64,000 nucleotides of DNA from Chryseobacterium sp. GTDB taxonomy: Bacteria; Bacteroidota; Bacteroidia; Flavobacteriales; Weeksellaceae. Positions within the stretch are counted from its first letter, which is position 1. Each line of letters begins with the position of its first letter. The position numbers and the translations under genes are program-made. Positions 59,020 through 61,507 of this stretch are shown piece by piece. Under the pieces are notes generated by a model, which searched no databases, was not told where the DNA came from, and worked only from the letters and a program-made list of their open reading frames with translations. Location: assembly GCF_019236175.1 (NCBI RefSeq), contig NZ_JAFAJM010000005.1, positions 1 to 64,000 of the forward strand. Direction: 5' to 3'.

Positions 59020-60135
59020 TTACTTTTTATCTAACAACGGAAGATATTTTCCGTATCCTTTTGATTCCATTTCCGCTTTTGGAATAAATTTCAGGGAGGC
59101 GCTGTTGATACAGTAACGCAATCCTCCTTTATCCTGAGGCCCATCGGTAAAAACGTGTCCTAAATGGGCGTCTCCTGTTTTACTTCTTACCTCTACCCTG
59201 TCCATTCCGTGGGTACTGTCAAGTTTTTCATCAATTAAACTTTTGGTAATCGGCTTTGAGAAACTTGGCCATCCGCAACCTGATTCAAATTTATCCGTTG
59301 AAACAAACAAAGGTTCTCCGGTAGTGATATCCACATAAATACCTTCACGGGTTTCGTTCCAGTATTCATTCTGGAAAGGTTTTTCGGTACCGTTTTCCTG
59401 AGTTACATTGTATTGTTCAGCGGTAAGTTTTTCTTTTAAAACTTTTTTATCCTGTTTTTTATAGGTTTCTTTTGGAAGTGGATTGGCTTTTTTCGCCATT
59501 TCGAAAAGCCCCGGTTCAATATGGCAGTATCCGCCCGGATTTTTATCCAGATAATCCTGATGATAATCTTCAGCTCTGTAGAAATTTTTCAAAGGAATTG
59601 TTTCTACCACTACCGGCTTGCTATAATTTTTAGCCAGCTTTTCAACTTCTCCTTTCACCAGAGCTTCGTCATTTTTATTGGTAAAATAGATTCCTGTTCT
59701 GTATTGATTTCCCCTGTCATTTCCCTGCTGATCTTTACTGGTAGGATCAATGGTTTTAAAATAAAGATCAATCAACAGTTTCAGATCTACCTGCTCCGGA
59801 TCGTATTTTACTTTTACGGTTTCGGCAAAGCCTGTCGTATGGCTTACCACTTCTTCATAGGTAGGATTTTGAGTATTTCCGTTCGCATATCCCACTTCTG
59901 TTCCTACCACACCGCGAATCTGTTGAAAGAAATGCTCTGTTCCCCAAAAGCATCCGCCTGCAAAATAAATCTCTCTGACATTTTTATTATCCATAGTTTC
60001 CTGATTTTCTTTTTTAAGTTCTACTTTTCCGGGCTTGGTATGTTTAAACAGCCCCGAACCGGCAGCAAAAACTGCTATACCCAGAACAATTCCGAGTACA
60101 ATAAATATATTTTTCATTTTTTTATTTTTATCCAT
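59020..60135 (-). CDS. msrAB: Bifunctional peptide-methionine sulfoxide reductase MsrA-MsrB, membrane-anchored
   Basis: A 371-residue fusion. An N-terminal membrane anchor (IFIVLGIVLGIAVFAAG, about 9-26) puts the enzyme outside the inner membrane. MsrA (about 53-205) carries the catalytic Cys in YFAGGCFWGTEH (near 58). MsrB (about 235-365) carries SGCGWPSFS and the catalytic Cys in GLRYCINSASLKF (near 341); the CxxC zinc pairs of many MsrBs are missing. It repairs both stereoisomers of methionine sulfoxide in envelope proteins. ATG start overlaps the end of the DUF417 gene by 8 bases (ATGGATAA), so translation is coupled. Confidence 0.95.
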   Translation of the reverse strand: MDKNKKMKNIFIVLGIVLGIAVFAAGSGLFKHTKPGKVELKKENQETMDNKNVREIYFAGGCFWGTEHFFQQIRGVVGTEVGYANGNTQNPTYEEVVSHTTGFAETVKVKYDPEQVDLKLLIDLYFKTIDPTSKDQQGNDRGNQYRTGIYFTNKNDEALVKGEVEKLAKNYSKPVVVETIPLKNFYRAEDYHQDYLDKNPGGYCHIEPGLFEMAKKANPLPKETYKKQDKKVLKEKLTAEQYNVTQENGTEKPFQNEYWNETREGIYVDITTGEPLFVSTDKFESGCGWPSFSKPITKSLIDEKLDSTHGMDRVEVRSKTGDAHLGHVFTDGPQDKGGLRYCINSASLKFIPKAEMESKGYGKYLPLLDKK

Positions 60136-60601
60136 TATTATTATTATTATTATTATTATTATTTTGAACGATCATTACACCCAATCCCAAAAGCAAAAGA
60201 TCTTTTAAGATAAAGAAATCAGTGACAGGTATTCCGTCCACGATCTTCCACATTCCCGGCGTTGTAAAGAGATAACTTAACGTGACAAGAAAAGTGACAA
60301 TCATTCCTATTCCGGCATATTTTTTAAGTACTGCAAATTTCACACTAAATATCAGTAATAGTGCAATGATAATTTCTATCATTCCGATAAGATTTGACAC
60401 TGCCTGAGCACTTATCATCTTATATACGAAAAAAGTAAGAAAGTGGTTTTCTACCAGAGGTTTTATAGCAGCTGCTTCTGTAGGGGTAAATTTGAAAATA
60501 CCTATCCACAACAAAATAAGAGCGGCCCCAAAAAGGGAAATATAATATCCAGGCTTATATGTTCTTGATTGATTTTTGTGAGGTTGTGTTGTTCTGACCA
60601 T
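60128..60601 (-). CDS. DUF417 (YkgB/RclC-family) membrane protein with a poly-Asn tail
   Basis: A 157-residue protein with four membrane helices (YISLFGAALILLWIGIFKFT; FFVYKMISAQAVSNLIGMIE; the conserved KYAGIGMIVTFLVTLSYLFT; FFILKDLLLLGLGVMIV). Features such as WIGIFKFTPTEAAAIKPLVE and TTPGMWK match DUF417, the family of E. coli RclC/YkgB, induced by reactive chlorine. The last 11 residues are ten Asn and a Gly, encoded by a trinucleotide run. Its end overlaps the msrAB start by 8 bases. It probably helps membrane resistance to oxidants; activity is unknown. Confidence 0.85.
   Translation of the reverse strand: MVRTTQPHKNQSRTYKPGYYISLFGAALILLWIGIFKFTPTEAAAIKPLVENHFLTFFVYKMISAQAVSNLIGMIEIIIALLLIFSVKFAVLKKYAGIGMIVTFLVTLSYLFTTPGMWKIVDGIPVTDFFILKDLLLLGLGVMIVQNNNNNNNNNNG
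60134..60163. repeat. Trinucleotide (ATT/AAT) microsatellite, ten units
   Basis: On the plus strand ATT is repeated without interruption from 60134; on the minus strand AAT codons make the poly-Asn tail of the DUF417 protein. The run ends just before the msrAB start codon. Slippage would change Asn number, not the reading frame. Confidence 0.9.
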
Positions 60602-60629
60602 ATGTTGATTTTTAATTATACTTTATTTT

Positions 60630-60672
60630 CAAAAGTATAGTCGGAACAATTCCAAAATCCTGACAGGATTTT
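60630..60672 (-). promoter_or_regulatory. Internal promoter with two palindromes before DUF417-msrAB
   Basis: In the 73-base gap upstream of the DUF417 gene, minus-strand TACTTTTG (60637-60630) matches TAnnTTTG, with TTTG at 60656-60653 as a -33 element (short 15-base spacer). A perfect 19-base palindrome AAAATCCTG-A-CAGGATTTT (60654-60672) overlaps that -33 element, and GGAA-CAA-TTCC (60643-60653) lies between the two boxes. These could be operators; the larger one could also be a weak terminator behind the anti-sigma gene. Confidence 0.45.
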
Positions 60673-60674
60673 TT

Positions 60675-60944
60675 TTAAAAATCCAGCTTTTTATTTATTT
60701 TATTTTTAAATCCCTGAATATCAATGTTTTTAATTTCAGATTCTTTTTGAGTGAAAGTTTCTGTAAAGATCTTGTCCAGTAATGCTAATTTTTTGCTGTA
60801 CATCTTACACCATTTGCAAATCATTAAGTGCATACTTAGTTTCCAGTTTTCTTTGGAAGAAATAGCATGAGCATTACGTTTTTCCATCAGCAAAGTAGCT
60901 TCGCTGCAGGGTAAGAATATAATATGGATAATTTTTTTAAACAT
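60675..60944 (-). CDS. Zinc-type anti-sigma factor candidate (HxxxCxxC)
   Basis: An 89-residue protein starting at the ATG at 60944 (MFKKIIHIIFLPCSEATLLM). A start 14 codons upstream would overlap the sigma gene and adds nothing recognisable. It has Cys13 and the H39-x3-C43-x2-C46 motif (HLMICKWC), the zinc anti-sigma (ZAS) signature in which zinc ligands often sense redox state. The tail is Lys-rich and helical. It starts just five bases after the ECF sigma gene stop. It probably binds that sigma factor and releases it on oxidation (inference). Confidence 0.8.
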   Translation of the reverse strand: MFKKIIHIIFLPCSEATLLMEKRNAHAISSKENWKLSMHLMICKWCKMYSKKLALLDKIFTETFTQKESEIKNIDIQGFKNKINKKLDF

Positions 60945-60949
60945 TTCAA

Positions 60950-61507
60950 TTATGATAACTTTGAAAACCAGTTGAATTCCAGACATTCTCTGAGCTGCAT
61001 CCGGCTTCTTTGTAAGATCTTCCAGAGATTAGTCGTTGAAACCTCAAATTCCTGACTCACTTCCGAAGCTTTTTTTTCTTCAAGATAATACATTTTCAAC
61101 AAAATCTTCCATCTGGGGGGGAGTTCTTCAATACAATCCTCCAATGTTTTATTAAAATCATGATCGTCCAACAGCTCAGTCTCTTTCCCTTCTGCATTCC
61201 AGTCGTTAAGAACATCATCTTTTTTCCAGGAGCCTGTTTCATCAAAAAAATGATCCAGTCTGATCTGAGGTTCAGATTTATATTTTTTCCGGTAAAAATC
61301 TGCTGTTTTTCTGTTCAGAATAGCCATCAGCCAGGTCAGAGGCTGGCTTTTCCCTTCAAAGGAATCATAAGAAGAAAATGCAGCTACAAAAACGTCCTGA
61401 ACAAGATCCTGTGCTTCTTCTTTATCGGAAAGCAGGTAAAAAGCTTTTTTTAAAAGGGGCTCAGAATATTCTTCTATCCAGCTTTTCAGTACTTCGTTTT
61501 TCGTCAT
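60950..61507 (-). CDS. ECF-type RNA polymerase sigma factor
   Basis: A 185-residue sigma-70 family protein with only regions 2 and 4. Region 2 (about 10-75) has AFYLLSDKEEAQDLVQDVFV and PLTWLMAILNRKTADFYRKK, which bind core polymerase and the -10 element. Region 4 (about 120-175) has LPPRWKILLKMYYLEEKKAS then SQEFEVSTTNLWKILQRSRM, the helix-turn-helix for the -35 element. Region 1 and 3 are missing, as in ECF factors. The next gene is the ZAS protein. The cluster sigma/ZAS/DUF417/MsrAB suggests an oxidant-response regulon. Confidence 0.93.
   Translation of the reverse strand: MTKNEVLKSWIEEYSEPLLKKAFYLLSDKEEAQDLVQDVFVAAFSSYDSFEGKSQPLTWLMAILNRKTADFYRKKYKSEPQIRLDHFFDETGSWKKDDVLNDWNAEGKETELLDDHDFNKTLEDCIEELPPRWKILLKMYYLEEKKASEVSQEFEVSTTNLWKILQRSRMQLRECLEFNWFSKLS

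Follow-up and report, generated by a model that had tools for sequence, protein, structure and literature searches.

In the analysed window, a 64,000 nt stretch of Chryseobacterium sp. (contig NZ_JAFAJM010000005.1), four genes on the minus strand encode an extracytoplasmic function (ECF) sigma factor (60950..61507, 185 residues), a predicted ZAS-type anti-sigma factor (60675..60944, 89 residues), a DUF417 membrane protein representing a short form of the RclC/RcrB family (60128..60601, 157 residues), and an MsrA-MsrB methionine sulfoxide reductase that is predicted to be membrane-anchored and to face the periplasm (59020..60135, 371 residues). The locus is likely to act as an oxidant-repair switch for the envelope: the sigma factor would be freed when its anti-sigma partner becomes oxidized. 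The same regulon seems to include a fifth gene, which codes for a spondin-fold lipoprotein. The first-pass annotation had described the order sigma-ZAS-DUF417-MsrAB with spacings of 5 bases, 73 bases, and an 8-base overlap. Order and spacings held, as did the identities of the genes, which were supported by domain matches and, for the 89-residue HxxxCxxC protein, by its Cys/His motif.

A promoter-like element, absent from the first-pass annotation, is located in the 73-base gap between the ZAS and DUF417 genes (60635..60665, minus strand; TGTCAGGATT-N11-CCGACTATAC). It is a predicted ECF promoter of DUF417-msrAB, with a candidate transcription start near 60629. The near-invariant element was revealed by aligning this gap from 30 loci. 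The consensus of 74 operon loci was TGTCAGGATT-N11-CCGACTATACTTTTGAAAA, with most positions of both boxes invariant, while 0.01 matches with up to three mismatches were expected by chance in the window. We searched 98 genomes of the genus Chryseobacterium, drawn from a larger group. With two mismatches or fewer the element was found in 73 of the 98 genomes, every one of them bearing the sigma gene, and in none of the 24 genomes lacking it. The 74th sigma-bearing genome (G003) had a site with three mismatches, and a reversed pattern used as control matched in 1 of the 98 genomes. The first-pass annotation would have been refuted by expression of DUF417-msrAB from a constitutive promoter only. 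The presence of what seems to be an ECF-type promoter of their own contradicts this, and suggests that msrAB expression depends on the sigma factor.

Species-named genomes were also scanned by sigma alignment, and the best 80 of 280 confirmed loci were kept; these share species with our genus- and family-level loci. A ZAS motif followed the sigma gene in 79 of these 80 loci. The element, at no more than 5 of 20 mismatches, was present 6-12 bases after the ZAS stop codon in 77 of the 79, compared to 0 of 7,900 dinucleotide shuffles. C. pennipullorum (L250; L and G numbers denote our loci and genomes) has a perfect copy with a spacer of 10 instead of 11. When 11 genomes of other genera were searched at three mismatches or fewer, 11 of 12 sites fell at the module and the reversed control gave one match. 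The -35 box GTCAGGATT matches exactly the SigE consensus of Neisseria (-35 GTMAGBWTT, spacer 12-13, -10 CGTCTAAH; PMC2893595), and the spacer of 12 also agrees, but the -10 box departs from it in part. We also observed that the sigma coding region often holds a promoter-like stretch TGTCAGGAA...CGACTAA with the same spacing (L300:4448, L303:4433, and similar), and that Capnocytophaga cynodegmi (L329, G615:C37) has a two-mismatch site before a gene for a secreted-looking protein.

In its own genome the element occurred twice at two mismatches or fewer, once in the operon and once 34 bp upstream of the gene for a 405-residue lipoprotein (L034). We fetched 26 further second sites across the genus. 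Twenty-five preceded an L034 orthologue and one (G058, L074:1485-1515) preceded the gene of an M43 metalloprotease, which has a type IX sorting/secretion tail (L074:1551-2783). Close orthologues of the lipoprotein were present in 43 genomes and all 43 had an upstream site, with two mismatches or fewer in 26, three to four in 15, and five in two of them. None of 13 diverged paralogues (43-47% identity) had a site, their best matches of 7-8 mismatches being equal to the shuffle medians, and the gene gave no match in any of the 24 sigma-lacking genomes. It directly follows msrAB in Elizabethkingia, Bergeyella cardium, Porphyromonas crevioricanis, and P. macacae, and follows DUF417 in Segatella buccae and Hoylesella pleuritidis. 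This adjacency was not used in finding the element and supports it independently.

The AlphaFold model of the lipoprotein (pLDDT 86.2) matched only three chains of the Protein Data Bank at E 0.001 or better, all of them F-spondin domains of F-spondin and mindin (3q13, 3d34), with template modelling scores by target of 0.48-0.59. The model thus shows an F-spondin-like fold. L034 scored 21.1 bits with the Pfam model PF06468 (Spond_N), just below the cut-off of 24, and 14 of 22 spondin orthologues matched this model at E 0.01 or better.

Conservation of gene order had been set as a check that could refute the first annotation. The sigma gene was present in 74 of the 98 genus genomes and DUF417 in 73. 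All 74 sigma loci were examined and 72 showed the order sigma-ZAS-DUF417-MsrAB, comprising all 30 loci that were fetched first (our own included) and 42 of the 44 fetched later. G046 and G090 have lost DUF417 and kept sigma-ZAS-site-MsrAB. G029 has lost sigma and ZAS; msrAB and a remnant of DUF417 stayed, without the site (L138). At the family level, 51 of 197 genomes and 8 of 33 genera harbored a sigma relative (E 1e-20 or better). Ten of 14 loci from other genera of the family (L199-L212) showed the full order. L208 has sigma-ZAS-site-spondin, MsrAB is missing from the stretch in L209, L201 has sigma-ZAS without DUF417, and L202 lacks ZAS. This last locus belongs to Elizabethkingia occulta (L202 / L300) and is a duplicate of sigma-DUF417-MsrAB that has neither ZAS nor the element, with an MsrAB match spanning 177 residues only; a complete copy is present elsewhere in the genome.

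Among the best 80 of 280 loci, the full order was found in 71. It recurs in Elizabethkingia, Bergeyella, Sphingobacterium, Myroides, Capnocytophaga, and Porphyromonas, and a partial order was seen in Segatella and Hoylesella. Gene order is thus conserved across several Bacteroidota genera, down to a sigma identity of about 54%, and the linkage of the ECF/ZAS pair to DUF417 and MsrAB is strongly conserved. The arrangement had been suggested to be flavobacterial. This description was too narrow, since Sphingobacterium and Porphyromonas have the full order.

The sigma factor matched PF04542 (49.4 bits, residues 11-75) and PF08281 (33 bits, residues 122-172), both above cut-off, and contains regions 2 and 4 only (Sigma70_r2 and Sigma70_r4_2), without region 1 or 3, as expected for an ECF sigma factor. 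It is the sole strong TIGR02943-like sigma factor of the genome (108.1 bits versus 35.6 for the next), although both scores are below the cut-off of 162.2. The ZAS protein had no Pfam match and reached 38.6 bits with the NCBIfam model antisigmaE, below the cut-off of 50. Its residues Cys13-x25-His39-x3-Cys43-x2-Cys46 fit the ZAS family motif C/H-x23-26-H-x3-C-x2-C, and by eye it has no transmembrane segment. The motif Cys-x25-His-x3-Cys-x2-Cys was present in all 66 open reading frames that were chosen purely by their position after the sigma gene, and its four residues were the sole columns conserved in all of them. A further alignment of 41 ZAS relatives was picked by the motif, and its invariance there follows from that choice; only 4 of these 41 matched zf-HC2 at E 0.01 or better. 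From sequence, the protein is predicted to be a cytoplasmic zinc-binding ZAS-type anti-sigma factor.

The DUF417 protein scored 102.8 bits with PF04224 (cut-off 27) and only 47.9 bits with the RclC equivalog model NF040476 (cut-off 275); it contains no cysteine. A second, longer DUF417 protein (209 residues) is encoded in the same genome (G000:C20) beside an AraC-family regulator (L001:1468-2097 and 2162-3013), an RclR/RclC-like arrangement. The reductase matched PMSR (PF01625, 209.1 bits, cut-off 23.7) and SelR (PF01641, 167.3 bits, cut-off 24.9), and a hydrophobic stretch at its N-terminus was taken by eye as a membrane anchor. It aligned to positions 186-517 only of the 521-position model PRK14018, and the N-terminal part that it lacks is presumably a thioredoxin-type domain. 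A separate second MsrA gene is located at G000:C19:403793-404251. The overlap of DUF417 and msrAB contains a ten-fold AAT microsatellite (60134-60163), which encodes a poly-Asn tail of the DUF417 protein. Among our own locus and 56 Chryseobacterium loci scanned, only our own had an AAT run of four or more, and changes in copy number would keep the frame.

By the published descriptions, we would file the module with the SigE/MseR and RpoE2/HrsE circuits, MseR being presumably the name of the Neisseria ZAS protein NMB2145. The locus had been proposed to be an undescribed response; however, this kind of system is already known from Neisseria (PMC2893595) and Haemophilus (PMC7907618). Neisseria SigE (NMB2144) also pairs an ECF sigma factor with a soluble ZAS protein of identical ligand spacing (Cys4-His30-Cys34-Cys37). 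Its regulon is likewise small, with two transcription units shown, and includes MsrA/MsrB and a DoxX/D-like membrane protein (PMC2893595). In Neisseria the autoregulated sigma gene is part of an operon of six genes, to which msrAB is not linked (PMC2893595), whereas here msrAB is adjacent, the element stands behind the ZAS gene, and sigma is not preceded by an ECF element. DUF417 takes the place of DoxX, the -10 box is CGACTATA and not CGTCTAAH, and the spondin lipoprotein is added. RpoE2/HrsE of Haemophilus influenzae is likewise an ECF/ZAS pair (the ZAS protein has 67 residues) with msrAB as target, a link to hypochlorite, and a DoxX cluster in its regulon (PMC7907618). Its autoregulation is very limited, which resembles the constitutive sigma expression predicted here. 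The regulon differs by an accessory DMT transporter and MtsZ, and DUF417 and spondin proteins are not among the members described in the accessible part of that report (PMC7907618). What sets our module apart is its spread in Bacteroidota, the replacement of DoxX by DUF417, the added spondin lipoprotein, and the lack of any sign that sigma regulates itself.

The regulon of Streptomyces SigR is large and thioredoxin-centred. Its anti-sigma factor RsrA has the same ZAS spacing as our protein (Cys11-His37-Cys41-Cys44), and the SigR/RsrA complex is dissociated by oxidants (both cited in PMC2893595). The contrast that had been drawn to RclR of E. coli was correct for the mode of control, sigma/anti-sigma versus one-component, but Neisseria and Haemophilus provide the closer analogues. 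RclC and RcrB are DUF417 proteins needed for resistance to hypothiocyanous acid (HOSCN) or hypochlorous acid (HOCl), and RclC also lacks cysteine. RclR-RclABC and RcrR-RcrB differ from our locus by a one-component activator or repressor and an operon without msrAB (PMC12096828, PMC9600549). EcfO/Reo of Bacteroides/Phocaeicola is another Bacteroidota ECF system tied to oxygen or envelope stress, but Reo reaches from the cytoplasm through every compartment to the surface, and its regulon has NigD lipoproteins (PMC13114119). In the flavobacterial relative Riemerella anatipestifer, the sigma-70-family factor RA0C_1534, a possible orthologue of our sigma factor, is induced by hydrogen peroxide and its deletion raises peroxide sensitivity (PMC6557517).

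Upstream of the sigma gene we identified a predicted housekeeping-type -7 box TATCTTCG (61545..61552, minus strand); the -33 half of this promoter is degenerate in the window. The pair TAnnTTyG with TTG 16-22 nt before it, which we take to be the flavobacterial housekeeping promoter type, was present in 47 of 56 Chryseobacterium loci, compared to 6.0% of 1,120 base shuffles. None of these 56 loci showed an ECF element upstream of sigma. Sigma and ZAS are, therefore, predicted to be constitutive. They would be transcribed together from this promoter and the sigma factor would thus be stored inactive. A positive feedback of the Neisseria SigE type is not expected, since no element precedes the sigma gene. 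Thiol oxidation and zinc loss at Cys13/Cys43/Cys46 would then release the sigma factor, which may drive DUF417-msrAB and the spondin lipoprotein gene from TGTCAGGATT-N12-CGACTATA. MsrAB would repair oxidized methionines in proteins of the periplasm, and protection of the membrane and cell surface would fall to DUF417 and the spondin lipoprotein.

We infer that the inducer would be an oxidant, with reactive chlorine as one candidate. Alternatively, sigma/ZAS may drive these genes with the ZAS protein sensing a non-oxidant signal such as zinc shortage or another envelope signal, MsrAB being part of a general envelope response. In Neisseria, hydrogen peroxide, diamide, and singlet oxygen left the transcript levels of rpoE and msrA/msrB unchanged (PMC2893595), although hydrogen peroxide is also said to be a reported inducer there (PMC7907618). 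The neighbors of distant relatives also fit such a signal. At the class level, at least 59 of 345 genomes carried a sigma relative (E 1e-25 or better), this count being a minimum because no more than nine candidates were scored per genome. All 28 loci examined have the ZAS motif, but what follows varies between them, with a PF05114 enzyme in L240 and L243, a weak YHS match and DoxX in L222, and YceI in L226. PF05114 is presumably one family with COG3220 and DUF692. DoxX and COG3220-type proteins are also part of the Neisseria and Haemophilus regulons (PMC2893595, PMC7907618). In L240:2410-3541 and L243:1-786 the sigma-ZAS relatives stand beside a small protein rich in cysteine and the PF05114 enzyme, an arrangement that resembles the Neisseria operon. 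However, HOCl induces Haemophilus msrAB within 30 min in the wild type and not in the rpoE2 mutant, although this mutant showed wild-type oxidant resistance in vitro (PMC7907618), RclC and RcrB are tied to HOSCN and HOCl resistance, and the ligand spacing of the ZAS protein is that of the redox-active RsrA. We regard a non-oxidant signal as rather unlikely.

It is improbable that the element is instead bound by some other regulator and that DUF417-msrAB transcripts come from the housekeeping promoter in front of sigma. In favor of this reading, that promoter was detected in most of the loci scanned, the gap measures only 73 bases, and the start near 60629 is a prediction. However, the element has a two-box structure whose spacer hardly varies, resembles the Neisseria SigE promoter in box, spacing, and target gene, is absent at two mismatches or fewer from all sigma-lacking genomes searched, and also precedes the unlinked spondin gene. 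A chance neighborhood of a generic ECF pair and an msrAB operon, to which the widespread MsrA and DUF417 families and the second copy of each in this genome might point, is highly improbable and is contradicted by the gene order within and across genera, by the site after ZAS, and by the regulon linkage through the spondin gene.

Several observations weigh against the proposed switch. Linkage of the main site to the sigma locus makes the co-loss of element and sigma partly trivial; for the unlinked spondin site the co-occurrence is not trivial. Read-through from the sigma promoter could supply basal DUF417-msrAB expression. The sigma frame contains stops in G038, G046, and G063 (a genome only 75% complete), and the sigma of G190, from the family-level search, has a gap of about 43 residues, so that the system may not be needed everywhere. 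At three mismatches our own genome gave two extra matches without clear meaning, and the reversed control gave one. L317 has no site near ZAS. For Bergeyella zoohelcum and two Sphingobacterium loci, a match required 5 of 20 mismatches, and the five mismatches of the spondin sites in L147 and L148 are about the best of 20 shuffles. The -10 box CGACTATA agrees with that of Neisseria at 6 of 8 positions and differs at 2.

More tentatively, and with slightly less than even confidence, we propose a Bacteroidota-wide envelope-oxidant regulon, in which an ECF/ZAS pair and a promoter code common with Neisseria and Haemophilus would control DUF417, periplasmic MsrAB, and a tandem F-spondin-like surface lipoprotein, the sigma factor being held in constitutive reserve and not autoregulated. 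If this is true, the lipoprotein would be an example of a bacterial protein with a spondin fold whose regulon is assigned and which helps to defend the cell surface against oxidants. The module itself marks this orphan spondin-fold lipoprotein as a likely oxidant-defence protein, and it ties DUF417 proteins, known from RclC and RcrB, to the repair of methionine sulfoxide in a further phylum. Several Bacteroidota genera gain a complete and testable candidate regulon with sensor, sigma factor, promoter sequence, and three targets.

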